A stretch of 64,000 nucleotides of DNA. It comes from a virus. Below, piece after piece: positions 8,070 to 57,626 of this stretch (the first letter of the stretch is position 1; each line of letters begins with the position of its first letter). A program made the translations under genes and the position numbers. The notes under the pieces were generated by a model. That model made no database searches and had not been told where the DNA came from. It saw only the letters and a list, made by a program, of their open reading frames with translations. The stretch spans positions 159,016 through 223,015 of IMG/VR virus record IMGVR_UViG_3300021511_000003. One strand, given 5' to 3'.

Positions 8070-8455
8070 TGGTGGACCAGCTGGGAGTCGAACCCAGTTC
8101 CGCAAAAATTCAAATTAAGTATCTACACTCATAGTCAACTTTTAGATTTAGTTACCCCCACGTTCAAACACGGAGTTGACATAACAACGGAGCCAACGGT
8201 GTACATTTGCTGGTAAGTTTGAAAATAAGAATGCCAGTTTGCAGTACCATTGCCCATTCTTATTTCGATCTCTTTACGTCGATGCCCCATCCCAATTCAA
8301 GAGAATAATTGGGTGGAACAGATTAAGCAGCTTTTGCGAAATCGGTGTAATAATCGTCTGCAATTATTGTTAGTGATAATGTTTTTACGGAGTAACATAT
8401 CATTCTCCGGAGTGCAACTTTTTTTTCTTTTCCACGTCGAAACCTTTTCTGGCCC
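8070..8455 (-). ncRNA. ssrA: tmRNA (transfer-messenger RNA), phage-encoded
   Basis: The 386-base RNA begins GGGCCAGAAAAGGTTTCGACG and ends with a TGGGTTCGACTCCCA T arm, CTGGTCC, A and an encoded CCA. GGGCCAG pairs with CTGGTCC over 7 bp, forming the tRNA-like domain. The tag frame lies at 8323-8361 and reads ADDYYTDFAKAA followed by TAA. The resume codon is GCA. Hairpins between tag and T arm fit the tmRNA pseudoknot region. It would rescue stalled ribosomes and mark nascent chains for host proteases. It is embedded in the tRNA array on the same strand. Confidence 0.95.
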
Positions 8456-9045: not shown

Positions 9046-9119
9046 ATGGCCCAGGTGGGGATCGAACCCACGAATGAGGGTTTTAGAGACCCCTGCTCTA
9101 CCACTAAGCTACTGGGCCT
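9046..9119 (-). tRNA. Amber-reading tRNA (anticodon CTA)
   Basis: Acceptor GGCCCAG/CTGGGCC with A73. The anticodon arm GGGGT-CTCTAAA-ACCCT gives CTA, which reads UAG. The D arm, five-base variable loop and T arm GTGGGTTCGATCCCCAC are all canonical, so this is not a mis-registered arginine tRNA. Among the tRNAs seen here it alone lacks an encoded CCA; the next bases are TAC. The amino acid cannot be deduced safely. Confidence 0.88.
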
Positions 9120-17027: not shown

Positions 17028-18194
17028 TTAATTATGTTCTAAGTTAAATACGGTTTTTAAGTAAGAAACGAACTGCTTATTTTCACACATACCTTTACCA
17101 GGGGAATTTGAAATTTTTGCTACAGGTTGACCATTACATTTGGTCATTTTGATTACCATATTGAGAGCAGGATTGGAAAAATTATTTGTTAGTTTTGTTC
17201 CGATACCAAAAGAAACTCCAATATGCATGTTAAGTGCATTGTAAATTTCTTTTGCTTTTTCAAAATCTAATCCATTGCTAAAAACAATGGTTTTTGTCAA
17301 CGGTTCAATTCCTCTATTTTTATAGAATTTAACCATACGAAAACCAAACTGAATAGGGTCAGGTTCGGAATCCTCACGAACACCATCAAATAGTTTATAC
17401 AATAATGGATCGTCAAAATCATGTAAGAAAGCATCTGTATTAATAACATCGGACAATGCTATTCCTAGATCGCCACGATATACTTTTATCCAATTTTCAA
17501 AAGCCATTTTTTGACTGAGATCTAATCTATATTCAAGTTGTTGATGTGCTTGCAACCATTCATGAGCCATAGTACCGATTGGTTTTACATTGTACTTCAT
17601 AGCCAATAATAAATTACTAGTGCCAATAAAATTATTGGTTGCATAGTTTTTACAATATTTTACAACTTTAGAATGCCATCTATAACTTCTTCTTCTTCTG
17701 GTACCAAAGTCTGCAAACTTCAATCCTTCTGGTAAATAATAAAGATTTTCACTCAGTCTCATCTCGGCATCTTTGTAATTGGATATACTAAGATTACAAA
17801 ATATTTCACTAATAATAGACATTAAAGGAACTTCAAAAAGAATAGTTTGAAACCAAGGTCCTTTGATATCAATATTCAGTTCACCAGTATTTGTATTAAT
17901 TGATGTTTTAACTAAATCTGTATTAAATTTATATTGTTTTAAAAACTCAATATATTCTTCACTAAAAAAACGGAGACTTCTTAAATAATCAAGTTCATCT
18001 CTATGAAAATATAGACTGCGTAAGGCATCAATATTAAGTTCAATATCTTGTATTGACTTTTTAAAATTTACACCTTCATAATTTCTACATTTGAATTTAT
18101 ATTCAACTGGAGTTGCTGCATAACCTAATTTTAATACTGCCTGTTGCATAGTAAATTTATACTGGTCATTATCAAGTAAACTATTCTGAATCAT
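17028..18194 (-). CDS. pncB: Nicotinate phosphoribosyltransferase
   Basis: The 388-residue protein starts MIQNSLLDNDQYKFTMQQAV, the typical N terminus of NAPRTases, and has FADFGTRRRRSY, GTSNLLLA, MAHEWLQAHQ, LGIALSDVINTDAF and GIGTKLTNNF. These match the substrate and phosphate loops of the family, including the histidine that is phosphorylated in bacterial enzymes (in the MAHE segment). It makes nicotinate mononucleotide from nicotinate and PRPP. The ATG follows AAAGGAG; the longer frame has no site. A nicotinamidase at 51530-52354 could supply its substrate. Confidence 0.93.
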   Translation of the reverse strand: MIQNSLLDNDQYKFTMQQAVLKLGYAATPVEYKFKCRNYEGVNFKKSIQDIELNIDALRSLYFHRDELDYLRSLRFFSEEYIEFLKQYKFNTDLVKTSINTNTGELNIDIKGPWFQTILFEVPLMSIISEIFCNLSISNYKDAEMRLSENLYYLPEGLKFADFGTRRRRSYRWHSKVVKYCKNYATNNFIGTSNLLLAMKYNVKPIGTMAHEWLQAHQQLEYRLDLSQKMAFENWIKVYRGDLGIALSDVINTDAFLHDFDDPLLYKLFDGVREDSEPDPIQFGFRMVKFYKNRGIEPLTKTIVFSNGLDFEKAKEIYNALNMHIGVSFGIGTKLTNNFSNPALNMVIKMTKCNGQPVAKISNSPGKGMCENKQFVSYLKTVFNLEHN

Positions 18195-18383
18195 TGTTTC
18201 TCCTTTGTTATAGTTAAATAAGAAAATATAGAGAATGGATTCTATTCCGGTTCGCCAATTAGCCACCGGGGAAAATCCAGCTGGAAGCCTCAATCGTTTT
18301 GGGAGGCAACGGGTAAATATGTAGCTATTTTGTTAGTGTCACATAACGTTAGTTCATCTTGATATTCTGGTGGAACACCCCAT
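18191..18383 (-). pseudogene. Decayed small gene overlapping the pncB start
   Basis: A frame reading GVPPEYQDELTLCDTNKIAT and on to PRWLIGEPE leads to a TGA overlapping the pncB ATG by four bases. It contains an internal TGA and an internal TAG. It would begin at ATG only if one G were removed from the GGGG run at 18377-18380. The content and overlap suggest a lost upstream gene of the pncB operon. Confidence 0.4.
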
Positions 18384-43674: not shown

Positions 43675-44832
43675 TTATCCCTTTATATTTATTAGTGGTT
43701 TGGCATGATCAATTATATTTATAACTATTCCATTTTGTTTTTTGATTACTTCATAGACATTCTTATAAGCGTCAGGTGCTTCATCTATTGTTGACTGATC
43801 GACCTTAGCAACAATACCTTTCATTTGATTTTTGAAAAGTTTCATGTCAATTGTAGATTTGGCTTTCTTTCTACTCATCGTTCGTCCAGCACCATGTGAA
43901 GCTGAATTTAAGTATTTTTCATTACCTAAACCTTCTGTAACATATACACCAGTTTTCATATTACCAGGAATAATTCCAATTTGCCCTTTTTCAGCAGGTG
44001 TTGCACCTTTTCTGTGTAGAACATGCGTCCCTTTTACCTCTGCATGATTATGATTTTCATTAATCATATGATCATGGACTAAAATACTTATTTCGTGCTC
44101 ATTATAACCAAGCAGTAAAAGAATTTCACTTATCATTAATTTTCTATTATCAATAGCGTACTCAAGGGCAAAATTCATATCTTTGAGATATTGCTGCCCT
44201 GATTCACTATTGAGATGAAAGAAACCTTTTGGCAAATCAATATCAATTTTCTTTGAAAGTTTCATATAATAGCTGGCAATCGAATGACCAATATTTCTTG
44301 AACCAGAATGAACAGTTATAGTTAGGTAACCTTTATTATTTTCACCTATTTCAATGAAATGATTGCCGCCACCTAAAGTACCAAGTTGAACATTTAGTTT
44401 ATTATCAACTTTTTTCTGTAGTTCTTTATCTCTAGATGCGCTTTGAAAATCATAATAAACGTATCCATTTTTTCTAGAATTAAACCCAACAGGTATCGTT
44501 TTATAAATATGTTCAAAAAGTTTTATTTTTTCTGATTCTTGTTTAAAGAACTCTTTTGCTTTAATTTTTGTTGCAATATAACACATACCACAACCAATAT
44601 CATATCCTACATATTCAGGAGATATTACATTATCAAGTAATGCTACACCACCAATCGGTAATGTGTAACCTGTATGACAATCAGGCATTACCGCTAATTT
44701 GATTAAAAAGTCAAGTGCAAGGGCTTCATATATTTGTTGTTGTGCAGTCTGTTCTAATTCATGAATAGGAATTAAACTAAAGAGTTTTTCTAATTTTTTA
44801 ACAGGATTTAAATTTTCTGTGTTTTTAGACAT
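43675..44832 (-). CDS. rtcB: RtcB RNA-splicing ligase
   Basis: The 385-residue protein has the RtcB motifs in order: MPDCHTGYTLPIGG, YDIGCGMCY, LGTLGGGNHFIE, VHSGSRNIGH, a HVLHRKGATPAEKG segment and SASHGAGRTMSRKKA. These hold the cysteine and histidines for Mn2+ and the histidine that carries GMP. RtcB joins 2',3'-cyclic phosphate ends to 5'-OH ends, the products of anticodon nucleases, so it could repair tRNAs cut by host defence. It is in the minus-strand operon with the kinase and phosphatase. Confidence 0.94.
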   Translation of the reverse strand: MSKNTENLNPVKKLEKLFSLIPIHELEQTAQQQIYEALALDFLIKLAVMPDCHTGYTLPIGGVALLDNVISPEYVGYDIGCGMCYIATKIKAKEFFKQESEKIKLFEHIYKTIPVGFNSRKNGYVYYDFQSASRDKELQKKVDNKLNVQLGTLGGGNHFIEIGENNKGYLTITVHSGSRNIGHSIASYYMKLSKKIDIDLPKGFFHLNSESGQQYLKDMNFALEYAIDNRKLMISEILLLLGYNEHEISILVHDHMINENHNHAEVKGTHVLHRKGATPAEKGQIGIIPGNMKTGVYVTEGLGNEKYLNSASHGAGRTMSRKKAKSTIDMKLFKNQMKGIVAKVDQSTIDEAPDAYKNVYEVIKKQNGIVINIIDHAKPLINIKG

Positions 44833-45769: not shown

Positions 45770-47449
45770 TCACCTCATTTTAATTTCATAAAGTTTGTTA
45801 CTTCTAAAGAATCTAACTTGATTTCCTTCTTTACAAAGTCTCATTGTTGAGTTGATAATAGGATCCTCAATTCGTTTGATATTATTTTTATCAAATTTAT
45901 TGAGAAATATTTCCACTGCATCAGTATCTGTAATTAATACACATACCCCATTATCAAGACATGTAAAATTAATTGGTGTATAATCTACATTCTCTTCTAT
46001 ACGACATTTATATTTATTATGTTTATTATCAAATATAATAATGAATCTGTTATATACACCACCTTTATGACCAGTTATAACACAAATCTTATTTTCATAT
46101 TTAGCATCCATGATTTGAAAGTCATTAAGTTCAGGAATAGATTTGATAATAAAATAACTTTTATCAAATGAGGGTAATGGTATTACCACATATTTTTTTC
46201 CAATAATACTCTGAATTATAACATTACTAAACATTTGACTTGAGTTAGGTTCTATATTCCATACAGTTTTAACAATGGGATGAATTTTTTCACCCATATG
46301 TTTGAATGTTAATTCTATCAGTTTCTCTTTATTTTTTAAAAATAGGACATTGTTGGTTATCATCAGGTCAGTACATTCAAGATCAATTTCTGGATTAATT
46401 CCGCCCATAGATTTAAATTTTACTCTTTTATTTTTAATTTTAACAAGAATAGGATGATTCCTTAAAGGAGTAAAAAGTATCTCAACACCAATAGGGAGTT
46501 CATAATCTGTTTTACCTAAATATAATCTCTCTTTTGTTTTAGTAATACCAAGAGATGCATTATGATAAAGAACATCCCCTAAAAATTCCTGTAACTCTAT
46601 GATTTCAAAATTATCAGTATTTTGAACAAGTTGAACAACAATCTGTGCAACTCCTGCTACACCAGGCATAGCAGGCGGTGGCTTTCGTAAACCATTTTCA
46701 AAAATATTATAGAACCAATCTTTATAAGATGCTGGAATTAAAGAAAAATCTCTGGTTGTTGGAGGTAAGGATACAGAACCATTGAAAACTGATACACAAT
46801 CAATAATTCTTTTTTTAAAATCATTCTTTTTATATCCTCTATGTTTTCCCTTAAATGGATGTATTCCGATAAATAATTGAAAAGCAATAATTCCAAATGA
46901 AAACCAATCTGATAATACTGTAAACTCTTTGGTTGTCCAATCTCTAATTGAAGGCATAATTGCTGTTGGTGGATATGATGGAGTTTTCCATGCATTTACA
47001 TCGATAAAATATGGGGTCACAAAGTCTTTTGAAACCATGTAATTCAGCTCATTATTATCAACTATCAAACATTTTTTATCATGAATAAATTGAGTAGTAT
47101 GTTTAATATTTTCAACCAATTCAATAATTTGATCGTTTTCAATTGCATTGTTATTTCGAAAAGTGTTTGTAAATAATTTGCATAAAGTAACAATATCTTC
47201 TCCTAACCAATTCATTGTAAAACCAATTTCGTGCTTTTTTTCATCGAATACTACATCCTGAGGTCTTACAATACTATCATGATTAAGTCTAGATAGTTCC
47301 CCAATTTTTGCAATAGGGATCATTTTTGTTAAATCATTATATATTTTGAAGGCTATGTTACCTTTTTTGTATATACTACCTTCGCCACCTTTGGTAACAT
47401 AATCATTTTGGACTAAATTCACCTTATGCCCATTTACATAGACAATCAT
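45770..47449 (-). CDS. Protein kinase-like protein with C-terminal extension
   Basis: The 559-residue protein has a kinase N lobe with GGEGSIYKK as glycine loop and IAFKIYND with the VAIK lysine. The C lobe has IVDNNELNYMV in place of HRDxxxxN, keeping the Asp and Asn, and FIDVNAW in place of DFG, keeping the Asp. SDWFSFGIIAFQLFIG is the usual helix. Residues about 280-559 form a strand-rich region. Such kinases occur with PP2C and vWA proteins in the TerY-P triad, all present here. AAGGAG precedes the start. Confidence 0.78.
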   Translation of the reverse strand: MIVYVNGHKVNLVQNDYVTKGGEGSIYKKGNIAFKIYNDLTKMIPIAKIGELSRLNHDSIVRPQDVVFDEKKHEIGFTMNWLGEDIVTLCKLFTNTFRNNNAIENDQIIELVENIKHTTQFIHDKKCLIVDNNELNYMVSKDFVTPYFIDVNAWKTPSYPPTAIMPSIRDWTTKEFTVLSDWFSFGIIAFQLFIGIHPFKGKHRGYKKNDFKKRIIDCVSVFNGSVSLPPTTRDFSLIPASYKDWFYNIFENGLRKPPPAMPGVAGVAQIVVQLVQNTDNFEIIELQEFLGDVLYHNASLGITKTKERLYLGKTDYELPIGVEILFTPLRNHPILVKIKNKRVKFKSMGGINPEIDLECTDLMITNNVLFLKNKEKLIELTFKHMGEKIHPIVKTVWNIEPNSSQMFSNVIIQSIIGKKYVVIPLPSFDKSYFIIKSIPELNDFQIMDAKYENKICVITGHKGGVYNRFIIIFDNKHNKYKCRIEENVDYTPINFTCLDNGVCVLITDTDAVEIFLNKFDKNNIKRIEDPIINSTMRLCKEGNQVRFFRSNKLYEIKMR

Positions 47450-47459
47450 AGGATTCTCC

Positions 47460-47774
47460 TTATATATTAATTCCAGGAATTAAATTAAATACTTGTGGAT
47501 CAAAAACATCAAAGATATAACATTTTCTAAACGTGAGAGTATCTTCAATTGCATATGAATTAATTCCTAATTGATAATAAATTTTTCCGGTTATATTATC
47601 ACCATTAATCTCTTTTACTTCTACCCAGAAGTATTCACATTCATTTCTTATTTTAACATAATGTCCAACCTTAATATTATTGAAATAAACTGGGTTGATA
47701 GCTCGAGTGTTAGTCGGGCATAATTCTTTCATTATTTTTGGTTCTGTAAGATCAGTTGGATTATAGTGTGCCAT
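47460..47774 (-). CDS. Hypothetical protein between kinase and phosphatase
   Basis: The 104-residue protein has a small barrel-like pattern: VGHYVKIRNECEYFWVEVKE and GDNITGKIYYQLGINSYAIE. This is typical of SH3-like or Tudor-like folds. It starts at the base where the PP2C gene stops, so it is co-translated. It may link the kinase and phosphatase, but the function is unknown. Confidence 0.55.
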   Translation of the reverse strand: MAHYNPTDLTEPKIMKELCPTNTRAINPVYFNNIKVGHYVKIRNECEYFWVEVKEINGDNITGKIYYQLGINSYAIEDTLTFRKCYIFDVFDPQVFNLIPGINI

Positions 47775-48580
47775 TAATCTATCCTCATATATGCTCCTAC
47801 TGAAAGATCATCGTAGTGAACGATATCATCTTTGGTAAATTGATTCAGAGCTTTTTTTAATCTTCGTTTAAGAAATTCCCCTTTGATGGTTTTAAATGCC
47901 ATTATACTGGATAAAACTTCAAAAATAGATATCATATCTTTTTCAGTTGGGGTCTTCTTTATAAAAGATTGAATACCATCTGAGCAAATTAAAAGAGACT
48001 GGTATTCTGACATTTGATAACGTCTAGTAATTTGTGCATCATATGCATATTCTTTTGAGATTGAAACTGTTTCACTCATTTGTGTTTTAAATATTTTTGA
48101 ATTTTTATTTATGTGATATATCTTATCTCGATCTTCATCAATGTAATATGTTAAATAATAAGGAGCATTTTTATCAAATTCAACAGAATTAAATTCTATA
48201 ATACCAGAATTATTTTTGCATATAATAGCACCATCTCCATACATAAATACATTGATAATCCCATCTAATTCAAATGAAATAATTAGGGTTGCATCAAGGC
48301 AGCTAATGGGCAAACCCAATTGTCTAGCTGTCAATTCAGCATTATGAATTATCCAACTTCCCATTTTATAATAATCAAGATTATGAAGATTACTCTGTCG
48401 ATATTTTAAATATTGTTTAGCCAGATGACAAAGTATTCCTGCACCCATTTCAGTATTATTAGATGAAGAACATCCATCAGATAAAATTAAGAAAGGAGTA
48501 GGGGTATTACCTTGAATTATATAGTCTTGACAAATTTTATGACTATCTCCTATCTTCAAAAATGTATCAGTATTTATCAT
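47774..48580 (-). CDS. PP2C-family serine/threonine phosphatase
   Basis: The 268-residue protein has the PP2C motifs: ICQDYI near residue 18, FLILSDGCSSSNNTEMGA with the metal-binding Asp-Gly, LDATLIISFE, MYGDGAI, LLICSDGIQSF and HYDDLSVGAYM. Each aspartate needed for the binuclear Mn2+ centre is present. It would oppose the kinase encoded downstream. Its ATG follows AAAGGAAC. Confidence 0.85.
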   Translation of the reverse strand: MINTDTFLKIGDSHKICQDYIIQGNTPTPFLILSDGCSSSNNTEMGAGILCHLAKQYLKYRQSNLHNLDYYKMGSWIIHNAELTARQLGLPISCLDATLIISFELDGIINVFMYGDGAIICKNNSGIIEFNSVEFDKNAPYYLTYYIDEDRDKIYHINKNSKIFKTQMSETVSISKEYAYDAQITRRYQMSEYQSLLICSDGIQSFIKKTPTEKDMISIFEVLSSIMAFKTIKGEFLKRRLKKALNQFTKDDIVHYDDLSVGAYMRID

Positions 48581-48612
48581 TGTTAGTTCCTTTATAATTG
48601 TTTATTACCTTT

Positions 48613-48735
48613 TTACTCGTCCATATCTAGCATTTTTCGTAAGGTTTGTGAATTGTGTGCATGACCAGCTTCGCGTACATAAAATTGATATGGGAGGAGC
48701 GCTGTAGATGGTGTTATCTCGACTCCTCCTCCCAT
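48613..48735 (-). CDS. Possible small protein, 40 residues
   Basis: MGGGVEITPSTALLPYQFYV and then a helix to TAA. The frame begins six bases after the upstream stop and has no clear site of its own. It lies in the operon between the 369-residue protein and PP2C. The composition looks coding. Confidence 0.45.
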   Translation of the reverse strand: MGGGVEITPSTALLPYQFYVREAGHAHNSQTLRKMLDMDE

Positions 48736-48740
48736 TAAAA

Positions 48741-49850
48741 TTAGGCAGCCACTCGGGCTGATTTTATATATGTTCGTTTTAGAATTGAAACTGAATGTTC
48801 ACCAACTGCTGGTTGAAATAATTTCAGTCGTTGCCATTTGATTCGTTTTCCTGGCATGACAAAATCCTCTTCCCATTTTACATTTTTGAACCAGGATGGC
48901 ATTCTTTCAGGATTTATATAGTGGGCGTATTCTGATGCTCTGGTCATAAAGCGCAGTTTGGAGTTAACTTTCATTAGTTCTTTTCTGTCTGTATATGCAG
49001 CTACAAGCCCTTTTTGTGTTTCGGGATATATATGATATGTACCGGATCTAAATGTGTCTGGTGTATAAACCATAGATTCAAATGCAACAAATTTCTTTTG
49101 AATTGAATCCCCATATGTATAGTTATGGGTTTCTGGTTTTTCACTTGTTGTTGGAAAGTCTATACCGGCAGCCTTAATACGTTTTATTTCCTTGTTCAAA
49201 AAGGCAGCCTGGTCTGTCAATCGGTCTTCCAACATTTTGGTAATAATATAATGATGACCGAAAAATGATGTCCATCGATTCGGGTGAATGAAATTTTTAA
49301 ATATGATTTTATTTCCAGACCATAGTTTGTTTTCTGTAATGAAACGATTTTCTCTTATGGTAGGATCGAATTGAATTGTTTCCCATCCTGAGTAAAATTT
49401 ACCATCCTTTCCGGTAATTGAAAATGTGCGAACATCACCAACTTTGTCTTCACCAATAATATTCTGATCTATTATATTGACATTGAAAGAAAAGAAAAAT
49501 TTATTGGCTCCAACACTGATAAGCTCCCCGTTACGATTAAATCTAGATTTTAATACCTGATCTTCACGTATTTTCGTTTGAGTGTGGGGTTTGTAAGTTG
49601 GAATGTTAATTATAGCACCACGACCGGCAAGCGAATATAGAAAACATGCTAAATCCAAATCTGTACCTTTAAATATTCCATAATCATCATATGCAGGACT
49701 GGGTTTCCTGGTAAAAAGGTCATAGTTCCACCATTCAATGACTTGATCACAAATTGGTTGAATTTCAGCGTTTCGGTTAAGGATTGATACAACAAGTGGA
49801 TTCGACAAAATAGTTTTAATACTTTGGGCAACATGCTTTGGTGCTGTCAT
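48741..49850 (-). CDS. Hypothetical protein of the TerY-P-like cluster, 369 residues
   Basis: The protein is helical at the start (MTAPKHVAQSIKTILSNPLV), then has LDLACFLYSLAGRGAIINIP and a strand-rich middle with GWETIQFDP. HPNRWTSFFGHHYIITKMLE follows. It is not a family I can name. Its position between the vWA and PP2C genes suggests a cluster-specific partner. The ATG follows AAAGGAAC. Confidence 0.6.
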   Translation of the reverse strand: MTAPKHVAQSIKTILSNPLVVSILNRNAEIQPICDQVIEWWNYDLFTRKPSPAYDDYGIFKGTDLDLACFLYSLAGRGAIINIPTYKPHTQTKIREDQVLKSRFNRNGELISVGANKFFFSFNVNIIDQNIIGEDKVGDVRTFSITGKDGKFYSGWETIQFDPTIRENRFITENKLWSGNKIIFKNFIHPNRWTSFFGHHYIITKMLEDRLTDQAAFLNKEIKRIKAAGIDFPTTSEKPETHNYTYGDSIQKKFVAFESMVYTPDTFRSGTYHIYPETQKGLVAAYTDRKELMKVNSKLRFMTRASEYAHYINPERMPSWFKNVKWEEDFVMPGKRIKWQRLKLFQPAVGEHSVSILKRTYIKSARVAA

Positions 49851-49865
49851 ATATTTGTTCCTTTT

Positions 49866-50411
49866 TTATGGTTGCATATTAGCAACACGGTTAAGTTCAC
49901 GAACAACATTAGTTGCTTCTTCTGCACAAAATTCATCTGGTACTATCAATGATTTATATAAAACTTCTTTTTCATGAAAATAAAATTCCTGGGTAATAAT
50001 TAAACAATCTGGTAAACTTCCTCCTAACTCATAAATAATAGTTGCAGCTCTTTTATGGACTGTATTGTATGCTACTATATTTCCTTGAGAATAGATTGTA
50101 TTCTTACGATTAATCCACTTTATATCCTTTTTAAATGTTCCATCTTTAGGACGAAGTGTTGTAATCAATATATATTTATCTGTATTATTGTGTTTCCATA
50201 CATGATATTCTCGAATTGCTATAGACTTCTCTATATTAACACTTTTACTACCCAGGTATTTATATGTTGGAAATATTGCGATTTCATTATGATATAGTGG
50301 GCGAAAATAATTAATATCTTCAATAACATCAGTTTCTATTTTTTCTACTCCAACACAACCTATTGTTATTAATAAAGATATTAACAGAATAAATTTTAAA
50401 ATATTTTTCAT
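49866..50411 (-). CDS. Lipoprotein, 181 residues
   Basis: MKNILKFILLISLLITIGC is a lipoprotein signal, with lipobox TIGC and the cysteine at residue 19. The mature part reads VGVEKIETDVIEDINYFRPL and is a mixed alpha/beta domain without a recognised motif. It sits in the vWA/kinase operon, so the cluster may act at the envelope. GAAAGGATC precedes the start. Confidence 0.65.
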   Translation of the reverse strand: MKNILKFILLISLLITIGCVGVEKIETDVIEDINYFRPLYHNEIAIFPTYKYLGSKSVNIEKSIAIREYHVWKHNNTDKYILITTLRPKDGTFKKDIKWINRKNTIYSQGNIVAYNTVHKRAATIIYELGGSLPDCLIITQEFYFHEKEVLYKSLIVPDEFCAEEATNVVRELNRVANMQP

Positions 50412-50480
50412 ATATGATCCTTTCTGAAAACTTTTGACATAAAAACACCTATATTTTTATGTCAAAAGTTTCAGATAAAA

Positions 50481-51239
50481 TTAGAAGGTCAAGGTTTGGC
50501 TTGGTGCGCCAGTTCCAAGAGCTTGACTTTGGCTACTGATACTTTCACTTACAAAGTTGGCCAGCTTTGCCAGTTTGCCAGCTGTTGCATCTCCGATATC
50601 AATAAACTGCGTTAACCCGGCATCCTTGCAAAACCTTTCCAGTGAATCTATAACCTGTTGTTGTTTATTAACTTGTGGATCTTTCAAAGCAACCACAATG
50701 ATAACATTTGATTCGATTTCTTCATTCAACATGGCATCCGTATTTTTATCTTTGATTGATTTGGGTGTCATGGTAGATCGGTTATCCATTCCATCGGTAA
50801 TGATATAAATTGCACCATTACAATCAAAATCCTGATCAATCAACCGCTTAGAATATTCCAAGGTGGCACATACTGCATCATACGTAGCATCAAAGAGACT
50901 GGTCATACCATCGGGATACAAAGGAGAATAAGAATTTATGTCGATATCTCCAAGATTAATGAAACCATGAACTTCAATGATATTTTCGTTAAACAGTAAA
51001 ATACGAAGCAGTAGATTTTCTGACCGGGGGCTTTTCTGACATGCTTCAATTATGGATTTGATAGCATCCAGTAGATCATCGGCGAATCTGATTACGCTAC
51101 CGGAAATATCGCACACAATGGTCACCAGTGTATATTCGGTTGCACCCAATTCTTCAATTCTTATAGCAGAGAACTTGAATGAACCAGGTCCTTTAATATC
51201 AATTACTTGTGTATCATCTTTCCCCATCATTTTTGGCAT
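50481..51239 (-). CDS. vWA-domain protein (TerY-like)
   Basis: The 252-residue protein has a complete MIDAS: VCDISGSVIRF (DxSxS), PDGMTSLFDA for the threonine and IITDGMDNRST for the aspartate. The order and length fit TerY-type von Willebrand A proteins. TerY, a kinase and a PP2C phosphatase form the TerY-P triad known from bacterial stress and defence islands, and all three occur in this operon. AAAAGGAG precedes the ATG. Confidence 0.82.
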   Translation of the reverse strand: MPKMMGKDDTQVIDIKGPGSFKFSAIRIEELGATEYTLVTIVCDISGSVIRFADDLLDAIKSIIEACQKSPRSENLLLRILLFNENIIEVHGFINLGDIDINSYSPLYPDGMTSLFDATYDAVCATLEYSKRLIDQDFDCNGAIYIITDGMDNRSTMTPKSIKDKNTDAMLNEEIESNVIIVVALKDPQVNKQQQVIDSLERFCKDAGLTQFIDIGDATAGKLAKLANFVSESISSQSQALGTGAPSQTLTF

Positions 51240-51254
51240 TGTATATTACTCCTT

Positions 51255-51533
51255 TTAAAATGTTATATTATTGTCAATGATGTATCTCCCAATACGGCAC
51301 TCATAATCTGGACTGCTTTCAATTTGTGTGTGACTGTAACATGGGGTTTCTTTATACCACCATTTTGAATGAATACTACATGAATATTCTCCAGGTTTTG
51401 AACCTCTTAAATGTTTACAAGGACCATTCCCTTCATGTATGTCTATATTGTTTTCACTTATGGGTTTTTCTGGATCATCAACAATTACAACTATATATTT
51501 ATGACAGCAATACCCACAACGAAGACATATCAT
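51255..51533 (-). CDS. YkgJ-like cysteine cluster protein
   Basis: The 92-residue protein starts MICLRCGYCCHKYIVVIVDD with a CxxCxxCC cluster. GPCKHLRGSKPGEYSCSIHS and TPCYSHTQI give five or more additional cysteines. YkgJ-type proteins bind zinc or an iron-sulfur cluster, and their role is not settled. It overlaps the nicotinamidase stop by four bases. Confidence 0.7.
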   Translation of the reverse strand: MICLRCGYCCHKYIVVIVDDPEKPISENNIDIHEGNGPCKHLRGSKPGEYSCSIHSKWWYKETPCYSHTQIESSPDYECRIGRYIIDNNITF

Positions 51534-52354
51534 AATAAATATTCTTTAGTTGTACTGACTTGCATTCCTCTTGCTTGCATATCCGCAACAAACTTATTAC
51601 CAATGTCCGAAAATAGTGTGGTGCCGGGAGGATCAGCTACATCAGATGTGGCATCTGTAAGGAGTACCATCTTTTTGATACTTTCCTTGCCAAATTCATC
51701 GGCAATGTCGATAACTGTATTTGCCAAACAATGTGATCTGGCTTCACCGGCAAGTAGGATAACATCTGCTTTTTCAAGGGTGTCAATCAACTTCATATTG
51801 ATATTTGTATCAGGATCTGATGTGTCAACCACGTCAGCCTTAACGGCAGAGTAATGTTCAGTTCGATAATTGGACCCCTTAGTTACATAATCAATGATAC
51901 CAAATTGTTCCTCCCATTCAAGAAATGCATCAAATAGAGGAGCATCAGGCTTTTCATTTATAACAGAACCACCCCAGCTACCGATAAGACAATGTGGAGG
52001 CCAAATACAAAGCGGATAACGTTGGTTATCTTCTAGAGCCTGAACATAATCCTGAACACGCTTCTGAAACTGTGGGTTTGTAGAACGATATAATCCTTGT
52101 TTTACATCTGATACACTGATGACTGTAAATGGGTCGGGATGTTTGCCGGCGGAATTGATCCAGAAAATCGGGTGGGCGATGTCAACAAAATGATGACTGT
52201 CGAGGGTAACATGAATATCATCAATCTTTTTTTTAAGTCGTATTATCATTGCTGCTAATCGTGCCATATCTTCGGTTGCTCCGGGAACATACAAAGAACC
52301 ATTTGGATGACAAAAATCATTCTGTGGGTCAACAACTAATAATTCAATTTGCAT
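51530..52354 (-). CDS. Nicotinamidase/isochorismatase-family hydrolase
   Basis: The 274-residue protein has the triad Asp in LLVVDPQNDF, Lys in DYVTKGSNYR and Cys in LAGEARSHCLANT. HVTLDSHHFVDIAHP supplies the metal-binding aspartate and histidines of nicotinamidases. It would turn nicotinamide into nicotinate, the substrate of the phosphoribosyltransferase at 17028-18194. The length slightly exceeds that of PncA. AAAAGGAG precedes it. Confidence 0.82.
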   Translation of the reverse strand: MQIELLVVDPQNDFCHPNGSLYVPGATEDMARLAAMIIRLKKKIDDIHVTLDSHHFVDIAHPIFWINSAGKHPDPFTVISVSDVKQGLYRSTNPQFQKRVQDYVQALEDNQRYPLCIWPPHCLIGSWGGSVINEKPDAPLFDAFLEWEEQFGIIDYVTKGSNYRTEHYSAVKADVVDTSDPDTNINMKLIDTLEKADVILLAGEARSHCLANTVIDIADEFGKESIKKMVLLTDATSDVADPPGTTLFSDIGNKFVADMQARGMQVSTTKEYLL

Positions 52355-52413: not shown

Positions 52414-52797
52414 TTATCTGGTTAGTAAATCTGCTTCTTTATTGAAACCACGTTTTACATGTTCAAGTTTCCACTCAGTAAAATAATGTTTTAATTTATA
52501 TCTTACTTGATTGCAAAGTATTAATAGTTTTGAATCTTTAACTTTCCATTTACCGTTTACTTGATTTACCACAAGAGCTGAATCTCCAAATATTTCAATA
52601 CTTTTGATATCAGCTTTTATAGCTTCATCCAATAATCTTTTCAATGACAAATATTCAGACTGATTATTTGTACCATAATCTAACTCTTCTGAATACTTAA
52701 TAATAACGGTATTGGATTTGTCTTTTATAACTCCTCCTATTGTCATAATACCAGGATTGGGTTTAGAAGAACCATCAAAAAATCCTTTAAATTTCAT
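52414..52797 (-). CDS. Ribonuclease HI-like protein
   Basis: The 127-residue protein keeps the RNase H acidic residues: GFFDGSSKPNPG, NNQSEYLSLKRLL, EIFGDSALVVNQVNG and KEADLL. It has the short basic-loop-free form found in many phages and archaea. It would remove RNA primers or R-loops. It overlaps the upstream YkgJ-like gene by four bases. The last acidic residue lies close to the end, as in truncated forms. Confidence 0.85.
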   Translation of the reverse strand: MKFKGFFDGSSKPNPGIMTIGGVIKDKSNTVIIKYSEELDYGTNNQSEYLSLKRLLDEAIKADIKSIEIFGDSALVVNQVNGKWKVKDSKLLILCNQVRYKLKHYFTEWKLEHVKRGFNKEADLLTR

Positions 52798-53279
52798 CCC
52801 ATAAATCCTTTAAATTTAGATGTTTTATTCTCTTGAATATAATATACTACATTTTTGATAATATACTTTACGTCTTCATTTGAATAATTCAAATTTTCTA
52901 ATTCATTTCTGAAACCTCTTATAAGTAAAGCTGTACTATCACTTGATCTAAATGGTTCTGCTCCATAAGCTTTTAAAAAAGCTTGAAACATAGTAGGGAT
53001 TTGAGGATATGAATAATTGGTTGCAGCCCTACTACGTTTTTTAACATCATTTCTCCATGAGTTTAAATTACTACAACAACCAGCCCCGGCGTATAATTCT
53101 TTTCGGTAACCTTCTCCAATTAATCCTGGAAGACGCATAAGACCACAAAAATATCGTCCCTCAGATTCATCCCATTCAAGTTGGGGGCATTCAGTTACTC
53201 CTGGATATAATCTTCTTGCTGCCTCACATGGAGTTTTTAAACAACAATAACCACAACCAACACAAGATTTAATTTTCAT
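52794..53279 (-). CDS. YkgJ-like cysteine cluster protein, 161 residues
   Basis: MKIKSCVGCGYCCLKTPCEA has the same CxxCxxCC cluster as the protein at 51255, followed by more cysteines (TECPQLEWDESEGRYFCG, AGCCSNL). A helical C-terminal half is not recognised. It is linked to RNase H by overlap. Two such proteins in one operon are unusual; they may be iron-sulfur or zinc carriers. Confidence 0.65.
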   Translation of the reverse strand: MKIKSCVGCGYCCLKTPCEAARRLYPGVTECPQLEWDESEGRYFCGLMRLPGLIGEGYRKELYAGAGCCSNLNSWRNDVKKRSRAATNYSYPQIPTMFQAFLKAYGAEPFRSSDSTALLIRGFRNELENLNYSNEDVKYIIKNVVYYIQENKTSKFKGFMG

Positions 53280-53461: not shown

Positions 53462-55267
53462 CTACTCCTTTTTATTATTACGTGATAGACCTAAACTCAA
53501 ATTACTGGCACCAAGAATGGCTGCTGCACCCTCAAGACCACCTGCCTGACCCATAACAAATGTAGTCGGGAATTTGATCATATTGGGATGTGACGATGCT
53601 GCCGCAAGAACTTCTTTTACATATGCAAGTTCAAATGCCTTATCTTGGCCAAGCACGAGAGCCTGAGCTTTCTGTCCAGAGGCAACTGCTTTCAAATAAT
53701 TTTCTTCACCTATACCCTCTTTCTTACGGGCGGCTGCATTATTATCTGCAATAGTAATACCGATTTGGGATTTCATCAAACGACCTTGTTCATCGGCACG
53801 TGCTCGCTCTTTTTCAGTTTCAACACGTTCGCTCTGTGCGATCTTTTCCTGTTTATACGTAGCCATTAAAGATTCGGCAAGTTGTTTTCTTTTACCAGGA
53901 ATCAGAAGTGACGGCGGAACAGCAGGATCTCCAAAACGTACCCATTGAACAGTAAGACCAGCTTGGGCGCCGGCAGGTATTAACTTACGTGCAACTTCTT
54001 TTTCCAGTTCTTCTCTATGATAAAGAAGGTCAAGAACTTCACGGGGGCGAGTAATTTTCTGCATCTTGGGTTCACCCTTTGAATCGGGAATTTCATTACC
54101 ATCTTTGTCAATTGCAAGATTATACACTGGCTCACCTTCTTTATCAAGGACAGGTTCTTCAACAGTGACAACCTGTGATACAACATTCCGCAGGATTGAA
54201 CGATAATTGGGAGTAATGATTTTGTTTTCAACAGCTTCTAGACTCCCAACAGATGCAACAACAAACGGTGCATTCTCAGGTGTAACCTGAACTTGGACTC
54301 TGGAATCCTGAAATACATCCCATCCTTGAACACGAAGAACAATTGCCATATCGGCGGCATTTTCTGGAGTTATAATTTTTTCTTCATGAGGAGATTGAAC
54401 AATCTTTCCATCATCCCCAATTGTCAAATCAATCCATTTTCGAGTATACCCACCAATATATTTCCAGGTTTGAACTCTGGTATCAACGATTGTAACATCA
54501 TAGGCTTTCTCATTGAGATAATATTCACCTGCATTATATACATCATTCCAAACACCACGATAACCTTTAGGTACTATGGGAACAGACAGGTCAGTTTGTG
54601 TAATACCAGTTGGTAGAATTGGTGGTCCTTTATAATCTTCACCAACATTCGATTTAATAACAGCAACATGACCAGCTGGAACAGGAGTTGATGATCCCTC
54701 ATATGCTTCAAATAGATAACGATTTATTCTGTATTCACCAGGAGGTAATATGGTCAACTGCGGACCTTTGATACCTTTGGGGACACCATCTTTATTATCA
54801 TATCCCATAAATATCATTGCGTTAATCATACTACTTAAATCATCCCATTCCGAAGCAATGAATTGACCTTTTGGCATGGGATTTCCATCTTTGGCAACAA
54901 GTAGACCATATTTGCCTTGTTCAACTCTAAGTATTGGTAATTCTTCAATATCATGTGTAACCCGTATGAAAGGAATTAAATGAAAACCAGGAGCTAGAAT
55001 TTTTGCCTGGGGTCCTTTTTCATTTATATTAGCAATAATTCGCCCAGACGGCATCTGATTTCCGAAATAAATACGTTTGAGATGACCAACACTGTTCGAA
55101 TCAATAATAAGGCAACTGGTTGCCAAAAACGCTGTAAATGCAATACCAATTGCTGAACCACGAATCGTCAAACGAATCCACTTATTATTACTATCCCTAT
55201 CTGGAAACAAGTGAGGCACAGTAAAAGCTACAATAATACATATAACGATTAGAAACAAAAGTACCAT
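53462..55267 (-). CDS. SPFH/band 7 domain membrane protein
   Basis: The 601-residue protein has two N-terminal hydrophobic segments (about residues 1-20 and 37-54), then repeated strand-rich regions (PAGHVAVIKSNVGEDYKGPP) and a band 7 domain with DMAIVLRVQGWDVFQDSRVQ and AGLTVQWVRFGDP. A long coiled coil (SERVETEKERARADEQGRL) and Ala/Gly-rich end follow, as in flotillins. It should oligomerise at the membrane. It stops at TAG with a hairpin next, so the amber codon acts as a true stop. Reading through would add about 26 residues. Confidence 0.85.
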   Translation of the reverse strand: MVLLFLIVICIIVAFTVPHLFPDRDSNNKWIRLTIRGSAIGIAFTAFLATSCLIIDSNSVGHLKRIYFGNQMPSGRIIANINEKGPQAKILAPGFHLIPFIRVTHDIEELPILRVEQGKYGLLVAKDGNPMPKGQFIASEWDDLSSMINAMIFMGYDNKDGVPKGIKGPQLTILPPGEYRINRYLFEAYEGSSTPVPAGHVAVIKSNVGEDYKGPPILPTGITQTDLSVPIVPKGYRGVWNDVYNAGEYYLNEKAYDVTIVDTRVQTWKYIGGYTRKWIDLTIGDDGKIVQSPHEEKIITPENAADMAIVLRVQGWDVFQDSRVQVQVTPENAPFVVASVGSLEAVENKIITPNYRSILRNVVSQVVTVEEPVLDKEGEPVYNLAIDKDGNEIPDSKGEPKMQKITRPREVLDLLYHREELEKEVARKLIPAGAQAGLTVQWVRFGDPAVPPSLLIPGKRKQLAESLMATYKQEKIAQSERVETEKERARADEQGRLMKSQIGITIADNNAAARKKEGIGEENYLKAVASGQKAQALVLGQDKAFELAYVKEVLAAASSHPNMIKFPTTFVMGQAGGLEGAAAILGASNLSLGLSRNNKKE

Positions 55268-56120: not shown

Positions 56121-56786
56121 TTATCTTTTATCTGGTAACCACATCCACCATCTATCTCCGAAACCTGGTGCACTGAGAGCATACCACTTTGTAGTATCCA
56201 GTAATGTCCCTTTATTATAAGTGTGCCAATGACCGAAAAACCATAAATCAGGTTTGTACATATCCCATAATGAAGATAGAGCTTGATTTGATGGTTCGTG
56301 TGTTTTTTCTGGATAAAATTTAATCAATTGTGGTACTAACTCACTTGGGCACGTATGAGTTATAAATATATCGATCTTGACATCTGGGAGATCTACTAAA
56401 TCTGCTTGTGTAATAATTTCTTCGGGAAACCAAGTAATACCAATAGTTCTCATATGTTGATCAATTGACCAAGCACCCCCCATAAACATTATGGTTCGAC
56501 CATCAGGTAATGTATAAATTGAACCTCTTGGCATATAAATAATTCCGGGTTCCAGTTCATCACTTTCTCTATTCTTTAACGACCAATGATCTTCATGATT
56601 TCCATCACACCATAATAATTTTTCTGCCCCTTGAAGTTTTATAGATGAAAGCGGAACACTCCAGCTTACCTTTGGCCAATATCCAAAGTCACCACAACAT
56701 ATAATAAGTTCTGGTTTCCTTCGGTTTATAAGTTCATTTAATTGACTAAAATTATTATGAACATCACCTGTTATTAGAACTTTCAT
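56121..56786 (-). CDS. Calcineurin-like metallophosphoesterase
   Basis: The 221-residue protein has the five metal motifs: ITGDVHNN, IICCGDFGYW, CDGNHEDHW, FITHTCPSEL and FFGHWHTYN. It belongs to the large phosphoesterase superfamily; the substrate could be a nucleotide, DNA end or phosphoprotein. Its start overlaps the NADAR gene stop by four bases, so the two are co-translated. This pairing suggests a nucleotide or ADP-ribose pathway, but that is inferred. Confidence 0.85.
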   Translation of the reverse strand: MKVLITGDVHNNFSQLNELINRRKPELIICCGDFGYWPKVSWSVPLSSIKLQGAEKLLWCDGNHEDHWSLKNRESDELEPGIIYMPRGSIYTLPDGRTIMFMGGAWSIDQHMRTIGITWFPEEIITQADLVDLPDVKIDIFITHTCPSELVPQLIKFYPEKTHEPSNQALSSLWDMYKPDLWFFGHWHTYNKGTLLDTTKWYALSAPGFGDRWWMWLPDKR

Positions 56787-57232
56787 AATAGACTCCTTAT
56801 TGTCATTAAAAGTTTACCCAACTGATTTTGACCAATTATTTTTTTACATTTTTTACATTTACAATCACCCCAATAATTATCATGCCAATAGTTTCCTTCT
56901 ATAAGTTTAGCATCCCCAGTTGATAAAATAAATTCTTTAAATTGATTTTGACTGAACTTTTGAAGTAAAAAATTTTTCATTCTTGCTATTTTAATAAGAT
57001 CCCAATCCTTTCTTAAATAAATTTTTCTTCCCATTAGTTTTGCTTTTCCAGCTTGGCCAGATTTAAGTTTGGAAATTTTATACCAGAATTCAGGCTTAAT
57101 ACTTTTACTGGCAACGAAGGCATGTTCAACAGTTGGGAAGTTGATATTATTGAATTTTATAATAACGGGATAAAAATTACTAAGTTGTTCATATTCATTC
57201 GCAAATCTATCAATTACTTTTAATTCTTGCAT
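56783..57232 (-). CDS. NADAR-family (YbiA-like) protein
   Basis: About 149 residues from the ATG behind AAGGAAGG. It has YEQLSNFYPVIIKFN, FPTVEHAFVASKS, GRKIYLRKDW, ILSTGDAKLIEGNYWHDNYW and LGKLLMTIR, the conserved blocks of NADAR. NADAR proteins cleave N-glycosidic bonds of ADP-ribosylated or riboflavin-pathway substrates. Some reverse guanine ADP-ribosylation of nucleic acids. A cysteine set (CKCKKCKK) is inserted near residue 123. In a phage it may undo a DarT-like host attack. Confidence 0.83.
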   Translation of the reverse strand: MQELKVIDRFANEYEQLSNFYPVIIKFNNINFPTVEHAFVASKSIKPEFWYKISKLKSGQAGKAKLMGRKIYLRKDWDLIKIARMKNFLLQKFSQNQFKEFILSTGDAKLIEGNYWHDNYWGDCKCKKCKKIIGQNQLGKLLMTIRSLL

Positions 57233-57626
57233 TATCAAGTTCCTTCCTTACAGACACGACATTATTTGATAAATCAACATATGTTTGAAACCAATCATCT
57301 TCAATTAAATGTGTTGATGAAAAATGATGTAATGTTGCCTGATTAGTTGCTGCTGCTAATCTAAGACCATACATTTCGACTATAATTGAACGACAATTAT
57401 ACATCATAGATGCTTCTTTTAATGTTGTTTTAAATACTTTATCAACACTCATGAGTGTAGCATTTTGTATATTTTTAATATCTTTATGATGAAAATATAT
57501 AGGTCCATATTTTAAGAAAACTTTACCTCTTTTATTTAAACTGGCAGTCATTGGGTAAACTGCAACTCCTATAATATAATGATGAGGAATTTTTGGATCT
57601 GCTTTTAGTTCTGTTAAATTATACAT
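57210..57626 (-). CDS. Hypothetical protein, 138 residues
   Basis: MYNLTELKADPKIPHHYIIG begins an alpha/beta protein with LKYGPIYFHHKDIKNIQN, SIIVEMYGLRLAAATNQATL and a helical end. I cannot place it. It is coupled to the NADAR gene by a 23-base overlap, so it may act in the same pathway. The ATG follows AGAGG. Confidence 0.6.
   Translation of the reverse strand: MYNLTELKADPKIPHHYIIGVAVYPMTASLNKRGKVFLKYGPIYFHHKDIKNIQNATLMSVDKVFKTTLKEASMMYNCRSIIVEMYGLRLAAATNQATLHHFSSTHLIEDDWFQTYVDLSNNVVSVRKELDNARIKSN

Follow-up and report, generated by a model that had tools for sequence, protein, structure and literature searches.

A nicotinamidase genetically tied to a protein kinase, a PP2C phosphatase and a vWA protein suggests phosphorylation control of NAD recycling in huge phages

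The TerY-P triad, which occurs in Ter, CoCoNuT and stand-alone defence contexts, places a vWA protein, a PP2C phosphatase and a Ser/Thr kinase in one operon; its kinases carry a C-terminal zinc ribbon, replaced by an OB fold in the defence variant (PMC11090510). Kinase, PP2C and vWA genes are also attached to the GAP1-N2 GTPase systems of actinobacteria (PMC7159879). On the metabolic side, NADase defences release nicotinamide, from which phages rebuild NAD (PMC12774641, PMC9503650), and surveys of viral NAD systems and of jumbo phages (PMC9503650, PMC7824862) list NadV-, NadM- and NadR-type systems, with no nicotinamidase and no PP2C among them. In a literature search covering papers available without subscription, no account of a cassette combining nicotinamidase, vWA, PP2C and kinase genes was found, although such a cassette is not without precedent because other systems are already known to have linked kinase, PP2C and vWA genes attached to them (PMC7159879).

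The DNA analysed here (the window, 64,000 nucleotides) is the end part of a 223-kb virus record, IMGVR_UViG_3300021511_000003, which belongs to a phage, as it encodes a DNA polymerase, a DnaB-like helicase, and portal and major head proteins. An earlier note, made from the letters alone, had described a TerY-P-like triad of kinase, PP2C and vWA genes in one operon with a lipoprotein and two further proteins. All of these genes were found on the minus strand as described, the triad within a single gene run in which every gene starts with ATG and most have a GGAG/AGGA-type ribosome site. A fourth and best-conserved partner, a nicotinamidase gene, lies beyond the coordinates that the earlier note had covered. 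The genes of the run and two further genes of the window are as follows.

51530-52354, minus strand: predicted nicotinamidase, a PncA-like cysteine hydrolase of a long (~270 aa) subfamily; cassette gene 1, with triad D9/K159/C209 and metal site D52/H54/H121
51255-51533, minus strand: small protein of the CxxCxxCC (YkgJ-like) type, encoded between the nicotinamidase and vWA genes with a 4-base overlap at the nicotinamidase stop; outside the conserved core
50481-51239, minus strand: vWA protein with complete MIDAS; Ser231, Ser233 and Ser238 of its C-terminal helix are near-invariant
49866-50411, minus strand: predicted lipoprotein with a lipobox-like N-terminus; lineage-specific operon insert, not a common neighbour cluster
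48741-49850, minus strand: 369-aa protein, no function assigned; seen in 5 viral loci, outside the conserved core
47774-48580, minus strand: PP2C-family protein phosphatase with the full set of metal-binding acidic residues
47460-47774, minus strand: 104-aa protein, no function assigned, between PP2C and kinase and overlapping the PP2C stop; outside the conserved core
45770-47449, minus strand: Hanks-type protein kinase (residues ~1-265) with a modelled C-terminal beta-propeller (~280-559)
17028-18293, minus strand: nicotinate phosphoribosyltransferase (NAPRTase, PncB; Pfam NAPRTase E=7e-66), on the same strand as the run and 33 kb off
56783-57238, minus strand: NADAR-domain protein (ADP-ribose/NAD-related), a recurrent cassette neighbour

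The lipoprotein and the proteins encoded at 47460 and 48741 thus exist in the operon as the earlier note had it, but fall outside the conserved core. A second CxxCxxCC-type (YkgJ-like) gene (52794-53279, minus strand) lies on the other side of the nicotinamidase gene from the first, and a 601-aa SPFH/Band 7-like protein is encoded upstream of the cassette (53462-55267, minus strand). The gap before the PP2C gene showed nothing unusual in DNA secondary structure.

The product of 51530-52354 is predicted to be a nicotinamidase, converting nicotinamide to nicotinate. In profile searches it resembled solved nicotinamidases more than other isochorismatase-like enzymes, and the strongest PDB matches were nicotinamidases, headed by yeast Pnc1 (2h0r, E=6e-16). 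With PncA and Pnc1, members of the isochorismatase-like superfamily, it shares the Asp-Lys-Cys triad and the Asp-x-His...His metal site; D9, K159, C209, D52, H54 and H121 are present in 73-74 of the 74 non-identical cassette members (see below), and the enzyme would be expected to be active. It differs from PncA and Pnc1 in its length (~270-310 aa across the cassette subfamily, with insertions), in the 31-57% identity among phages (57, 54, 36 and 31% between the window protein and those of four other phage records), and in being genetically tied to the kinase/PP2C/vWA set.

The earlier note had called the PP2C active-looking and the MIDAS complete and had seen the Lys, Asp and Asn residues of the kinase retained, and the comparison of 72-74 non-identical cassettes bears this out: the kinase residues Lys35, Asp131, Asn136 and Asp150, the six acidic residues of the PP2C and the MIDAS residues of the vWA protein (D44-x-[ST]46-x-S48...T113...D149) are essentially invariant, which argues that the triad is not a chance arrangement. 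The kinase matched Pfam Pkinase at E=3e-6, slightly under the curated cut-off; the PP2C matched PP2C_2 at E=1.6e-14, and the vWA protein had no vWA match in Pfam. Fold models were computed by AlphaFold from alignments in which rows from the annotated phage collection were left out. The vWA model (mean pLDDT 93.7) resembles vWA and integrin I domains, and the kinase model (mean pLDDT 93.8) has, after the kinase domain, a second domain made wholly of beta strands that matches the propellers of LRRK2, DDB1 and clathrin in structure comparison, so that the C-terminal half of the kinase is, as modelled, a beta-propeller. Its best viral match was a Myoviridae protein, aligned from end to end (E=3.6e-29). 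No conserved cysteine quartet was seen in the cassette kinases. In the C-terminal helix of the vWA protein, Ser231, Ser233 and Ser238 are kept in 73-74 of 74 members and might, at a guess from this conservation, be phosphorylation sites.

The arrangement recurs widely. In an annotated phage collection, the kinase query and the nicotinamidase query returned the identical four records, and blastp among loci indicated that the conserved unit is four genes (nicotinamidase, vWA, PP2C and kinase) and not the triad. Scans with a nicotinamidase alignment yielded 80 loci in viral contigs and 80 in bacterial or archaeal genomes, the flanks of which were then profile-searched (this search also picked up the divergent PP2C of locus L004). 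Complete cassettes numbered 89, 74 of them non-identical, in phages and some bacteria, and every one had all its genes on the same strand; the order nicotinamidase-vWA-PP2C-kinase was found in 69 of the 74 and a permuted order in three more, with a median nicotinamidase-vWA gap of 39 bp. Nearly all viral loci fetched by the nicotinamidase alone had the triad on the same strand. The neighbourhoods of homologues thus keep the triad, the opposite of what the earlier note had named as evidence against itself. A reverse scan from the kinase returned 80 viral loci, with PP2C in 80, vWA in 77 and nicotinamidase in 76 within 10 kb; among the remaining four, the L201/L047 record has a nicotinamidase farther off, L208 and L228 are cut by the contig start, and L254 is devoid of the gene within its 58-kb fragment.

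Among 25 records fetched by the capsid protein of the window, nicotinamidase and kinase were both present in the same 9 and both missing from the other 16, which indicates that the cassette is an accessory element whose genes are transferred or lost together. The pairwise distances of the four proteins are correlated (Mantel 0.74 for nicotinamidase and kinase, 0 of 500 permutations; 0.49 for phages only). A phage-only system was rejected, as cassettes also occur in bacterial contigs, some of them clearly chromosomal; these bacterial cassettes are often distant from other NAD genes, and in a sample of 299 Lachnospiraceae genomes the cassette was found in one, which was the reference genome itself. 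In a Lachnospiraceae chromosome (L147, 14111-17568), the cassette is followed by genes for a MoxR-type AAA ATPase and a DUF5682 protein. An extra vWA paralogue stands beside the four core genes at L038/L052 (15635-16384), L081 (17112-17870) and L007 (3822-4856).

With the TerY-P triad the phage cassette has in common the vWA, PP2C and Ser/Thr kinase genes in one operon, the complete MIDAS, and the active-looking phosphatase and kinase, so that this part of the earlier designation stands. Membership in TerY-P was rejected as unsupported, since the kinase has a modelled beta-propeller where TerY-P kinases have their zinc ribbon or their OB fold, and since TerD is absent (0 of 30 cassette records, controls positive). 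TerY_C had no Pfam match among the window proteins, and a genome-level search for it gave no match in the cassette records and none in the controls either; TerY-P models were absent from the PADLOC matches up to E=0.1, in a search run without a known TerY-P protein as positive control. PADLOC otherwise returned no defence model besides weak kinase matches (mad6, MkoA and PD-T4-6, E ~3e-4 to 1e-3), which were dismissed as generic kinase similarity. In contrast to TerY-P contexts, restriction genes do not occur among the cassette's common neighbours, and the nicotinamidase is a near-constant fourth gene. Taken together, these features and the NAD genes described below point to a switch that resembles TerY-P but goes with NAD salvage, and not to a Ter system. 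The GAP1-N2 attachments resemble the cassette in that an active kinase, a PP2C and a stand-alone vWA adjoin one another and are attached to a core; that core is variable and GTPase-based, whereas the phage cassette has the nicotinamidase instead, and the GAP1-N2-linked kinase, unlike the phage kinase, carries a zinc ribbon plus a beta-rich domain or TM helices.

The nicotinamidase step is the first of the Preiss-Handler route to NAD and is followed by PncB, NadD and NadE. At the viral loci, the commonest further neighbours of the cassette were NAPRTase (37), an NrtR-like Nudix protein (24), NAD synthetase (23), NADAR (10) and a NadD-like protein (9). Pfam confirmed NAPRTase, NAD_synthase, CTP_transf_like, NUDIX and NADAR in the examples tested, and left the wHTH part of NrtR unconfirmed in the NrtR-like examples. 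Across 32 cassette-bearing phage records (mostly >175 kb, incomplete, and including two pairs of duplicates or near-duplicates), NAPRTase and NAD synthetase were each present in 26, and CTP_transf_like, a family not specific to NadD, was above cut-off in 26; among cassette-free capsid relatives of at least 139 kb, a small and incompletely matched control, the corresponding counts were 2 of 7 for NAPRTase and 1 of 7 for NAD synthetase. Three cassette phages (G018, G021 and G026) had neither NAPRTase nor NAD synthetase in the available sequence. The record of the window itself encodes NAPRTase and NADAR as well as one short CTP_transf_like frame to which no role is assigned; profile search found no NAD synthetase in its 223 kb, which may be incomplete, and a weak candidate at 141323-141952 of the record proved to be a QueC relative. 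Triad-free homologues of the phage enzyme directly adjoin pncB in betaproteobacteria (e.g., L106 and L116) and in some phages, namely in record L064 and in L075/L076, where nadE is present too. The nicotinamidase as constant partner and the frequent NAD-salvage neighbours together indicate a link to NAD metabolism.

We therefore favour, with a probability of roughly one half, the reading that the cassette is a reversible phospho-switch on the nicotinamidase step of NAD salvage, the benefit of which would be the rebuilding of NAD against NADase defences. The nicotinamidase would convert nicotinamide to nicotinate as the entry to the Preiss-Handler route, with PncB, NadD and NadE of the phage or host following; the kinase would switch this step on or off, the PP2C would reverse it, and the vWA protein would be a Mg-dependent adaptor on which the switch is assembled. 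The propeller may serve as a surface for sensing or docking a partner. In the comparison with triad-free relatives, neither a residue nor a phosphorylation site was particular to the cassette nicotinamidases: all conserved columns are common to both groups, so that direct phosphorylation of the enzyme is without sequence support, and the target would probably be the C-terminal serines of the vWA protein or the nicotinamidase-vWA complex. Known biology, in which NADase defences set nicotinamide free and phages rebuild NAD from it, makes recovery of NAD once such host defences fire the likely benefit. More tentatively, the propeller kinase and PP2C could gate the nicotinamidase through the vWA protein such that NADase-released nicotinamide is captured only on demand, and bacteria would make sporadic use of the same switch. 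The general phospho-switch that the earlier note had proposed is well supported by the intact and conserved kinase, phosphatase and vWA protein. Its suggestion of envelope control or superinfection exclusion found no support, the constant partner being a nicotinamidase and the frequent neighbours NAD-salvage genes.

Several observations sit less easily with NAD salvage. Huge phages hold many metabolic genes anyway, and a pure supply of NAD accords poorly with bacterial cassettes that have no NAD neighbours and with phages that show no later pathway genes in the available sequence. Such chromosomal cassettes, together with the accessory distribution noted above (9 of 25 near relatives, one of 299 Lachnospiraceae genomes), would suit a TerY-P-type module that works on its own in defence or superinfection exclusion, with the nicotinamidase as a metabolic effector or signal-maker and not as a supplier of NAD; PMC11090510, citing Gao 2020, describes protection against phages by TerY-P-like modules in which the kinase has an OB fold. 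We consider this unlikely, as most phage carriers also have NAD-synthesis genes, triad-free nicotinamidase homologues adjoin pncB, carriers are without TerD and match PADLOC only through generic kinase similarity, and conflict systems usually vary the effector, whereas here the nicotinamidase partner is constant.

The many other metabolic and RNA-repair genes of these phages would fit a takeover of the host, in which kinase and PP2C target host proteins, the nicotinamidase merely supplies NAD, and the operon is shared for timing only. Phage kinases of other families do act on host proteins. However, the kinase-nicotinamidase pairing is near-exclusive and its order constant across divergent phages and bacteria, with pncB and nadE scattered by comparison, and the paired PP2C favours a reversible regulatory loop over a one-way takeover, which leaves this explanation unlikely as well. 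Least probable by far is a role of the vWA protein, kinase and PP2C in virion assembly or at the envelope of the infected cell, the nicotinamidase being a bystander. In its favour, a capsid gene lies ~4 kb from the cassette in the window, the operon has a lipoprotein gene as an insert, and a part in virion assembly has been proposed for the MoxR-vWA pairs of jumbo phages (PMC7824862). Against it, the head genes are on the opposite strand, the cassette is missing from 16 of the 25 relatives that share the capsid family, the lipoprotein is not conserved, and the cassette contains neither MoxR nor a structural gene and occurs in bacterial chromosomes.

If nicotinamide capture is indeed gated in this way, the cassette would act as a counter-defence under phosphorylation control, for which we found no description in the literature. 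Like phage NARP1 (Adps and Namat) and NadV/NadM/NadR salvage, it would rebuild NAD from NADase products, notably nicotinamide, with phage-encoded enzymes; unlike them, the cassette would use the deamidating Preiss-Handler route (nicotinamidase, PncB, a NadD-like protein and NadE), and it carries a protein-phosphorylation module. It would thus add a nicotinamidase-based route, and a candidate layer of control, to phage NAD rebuilding against NADase immunity. Since TerY-P-like triads are without an assigned target and this one is locked to a small, easily assayed enzyme, the target of the triad becomes directly testable.

Several further genes of the window deserve mention. About 20 tRNA genes are present, among them one with anticodon CTA (9047-9118, minus strand; ARAGORN label Pyl), which is amber-suppressor-like; 4 of ~57 long ORFs end in TAG, which makes wholesale recoding of TAG unlikely. 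A phage tmRNA gene with the tag ADDYYTDFAKAA lies among the tRNA genes (8070-8455, minus strand). An RtcB-family RNA ligase is encoded at 43675-44832 and a nucleotidyltransferase of the RlaP family (RNA repair pathway) at 263-1174, both on the minus strand, and RlaP recurs by the cassettes of other phages.
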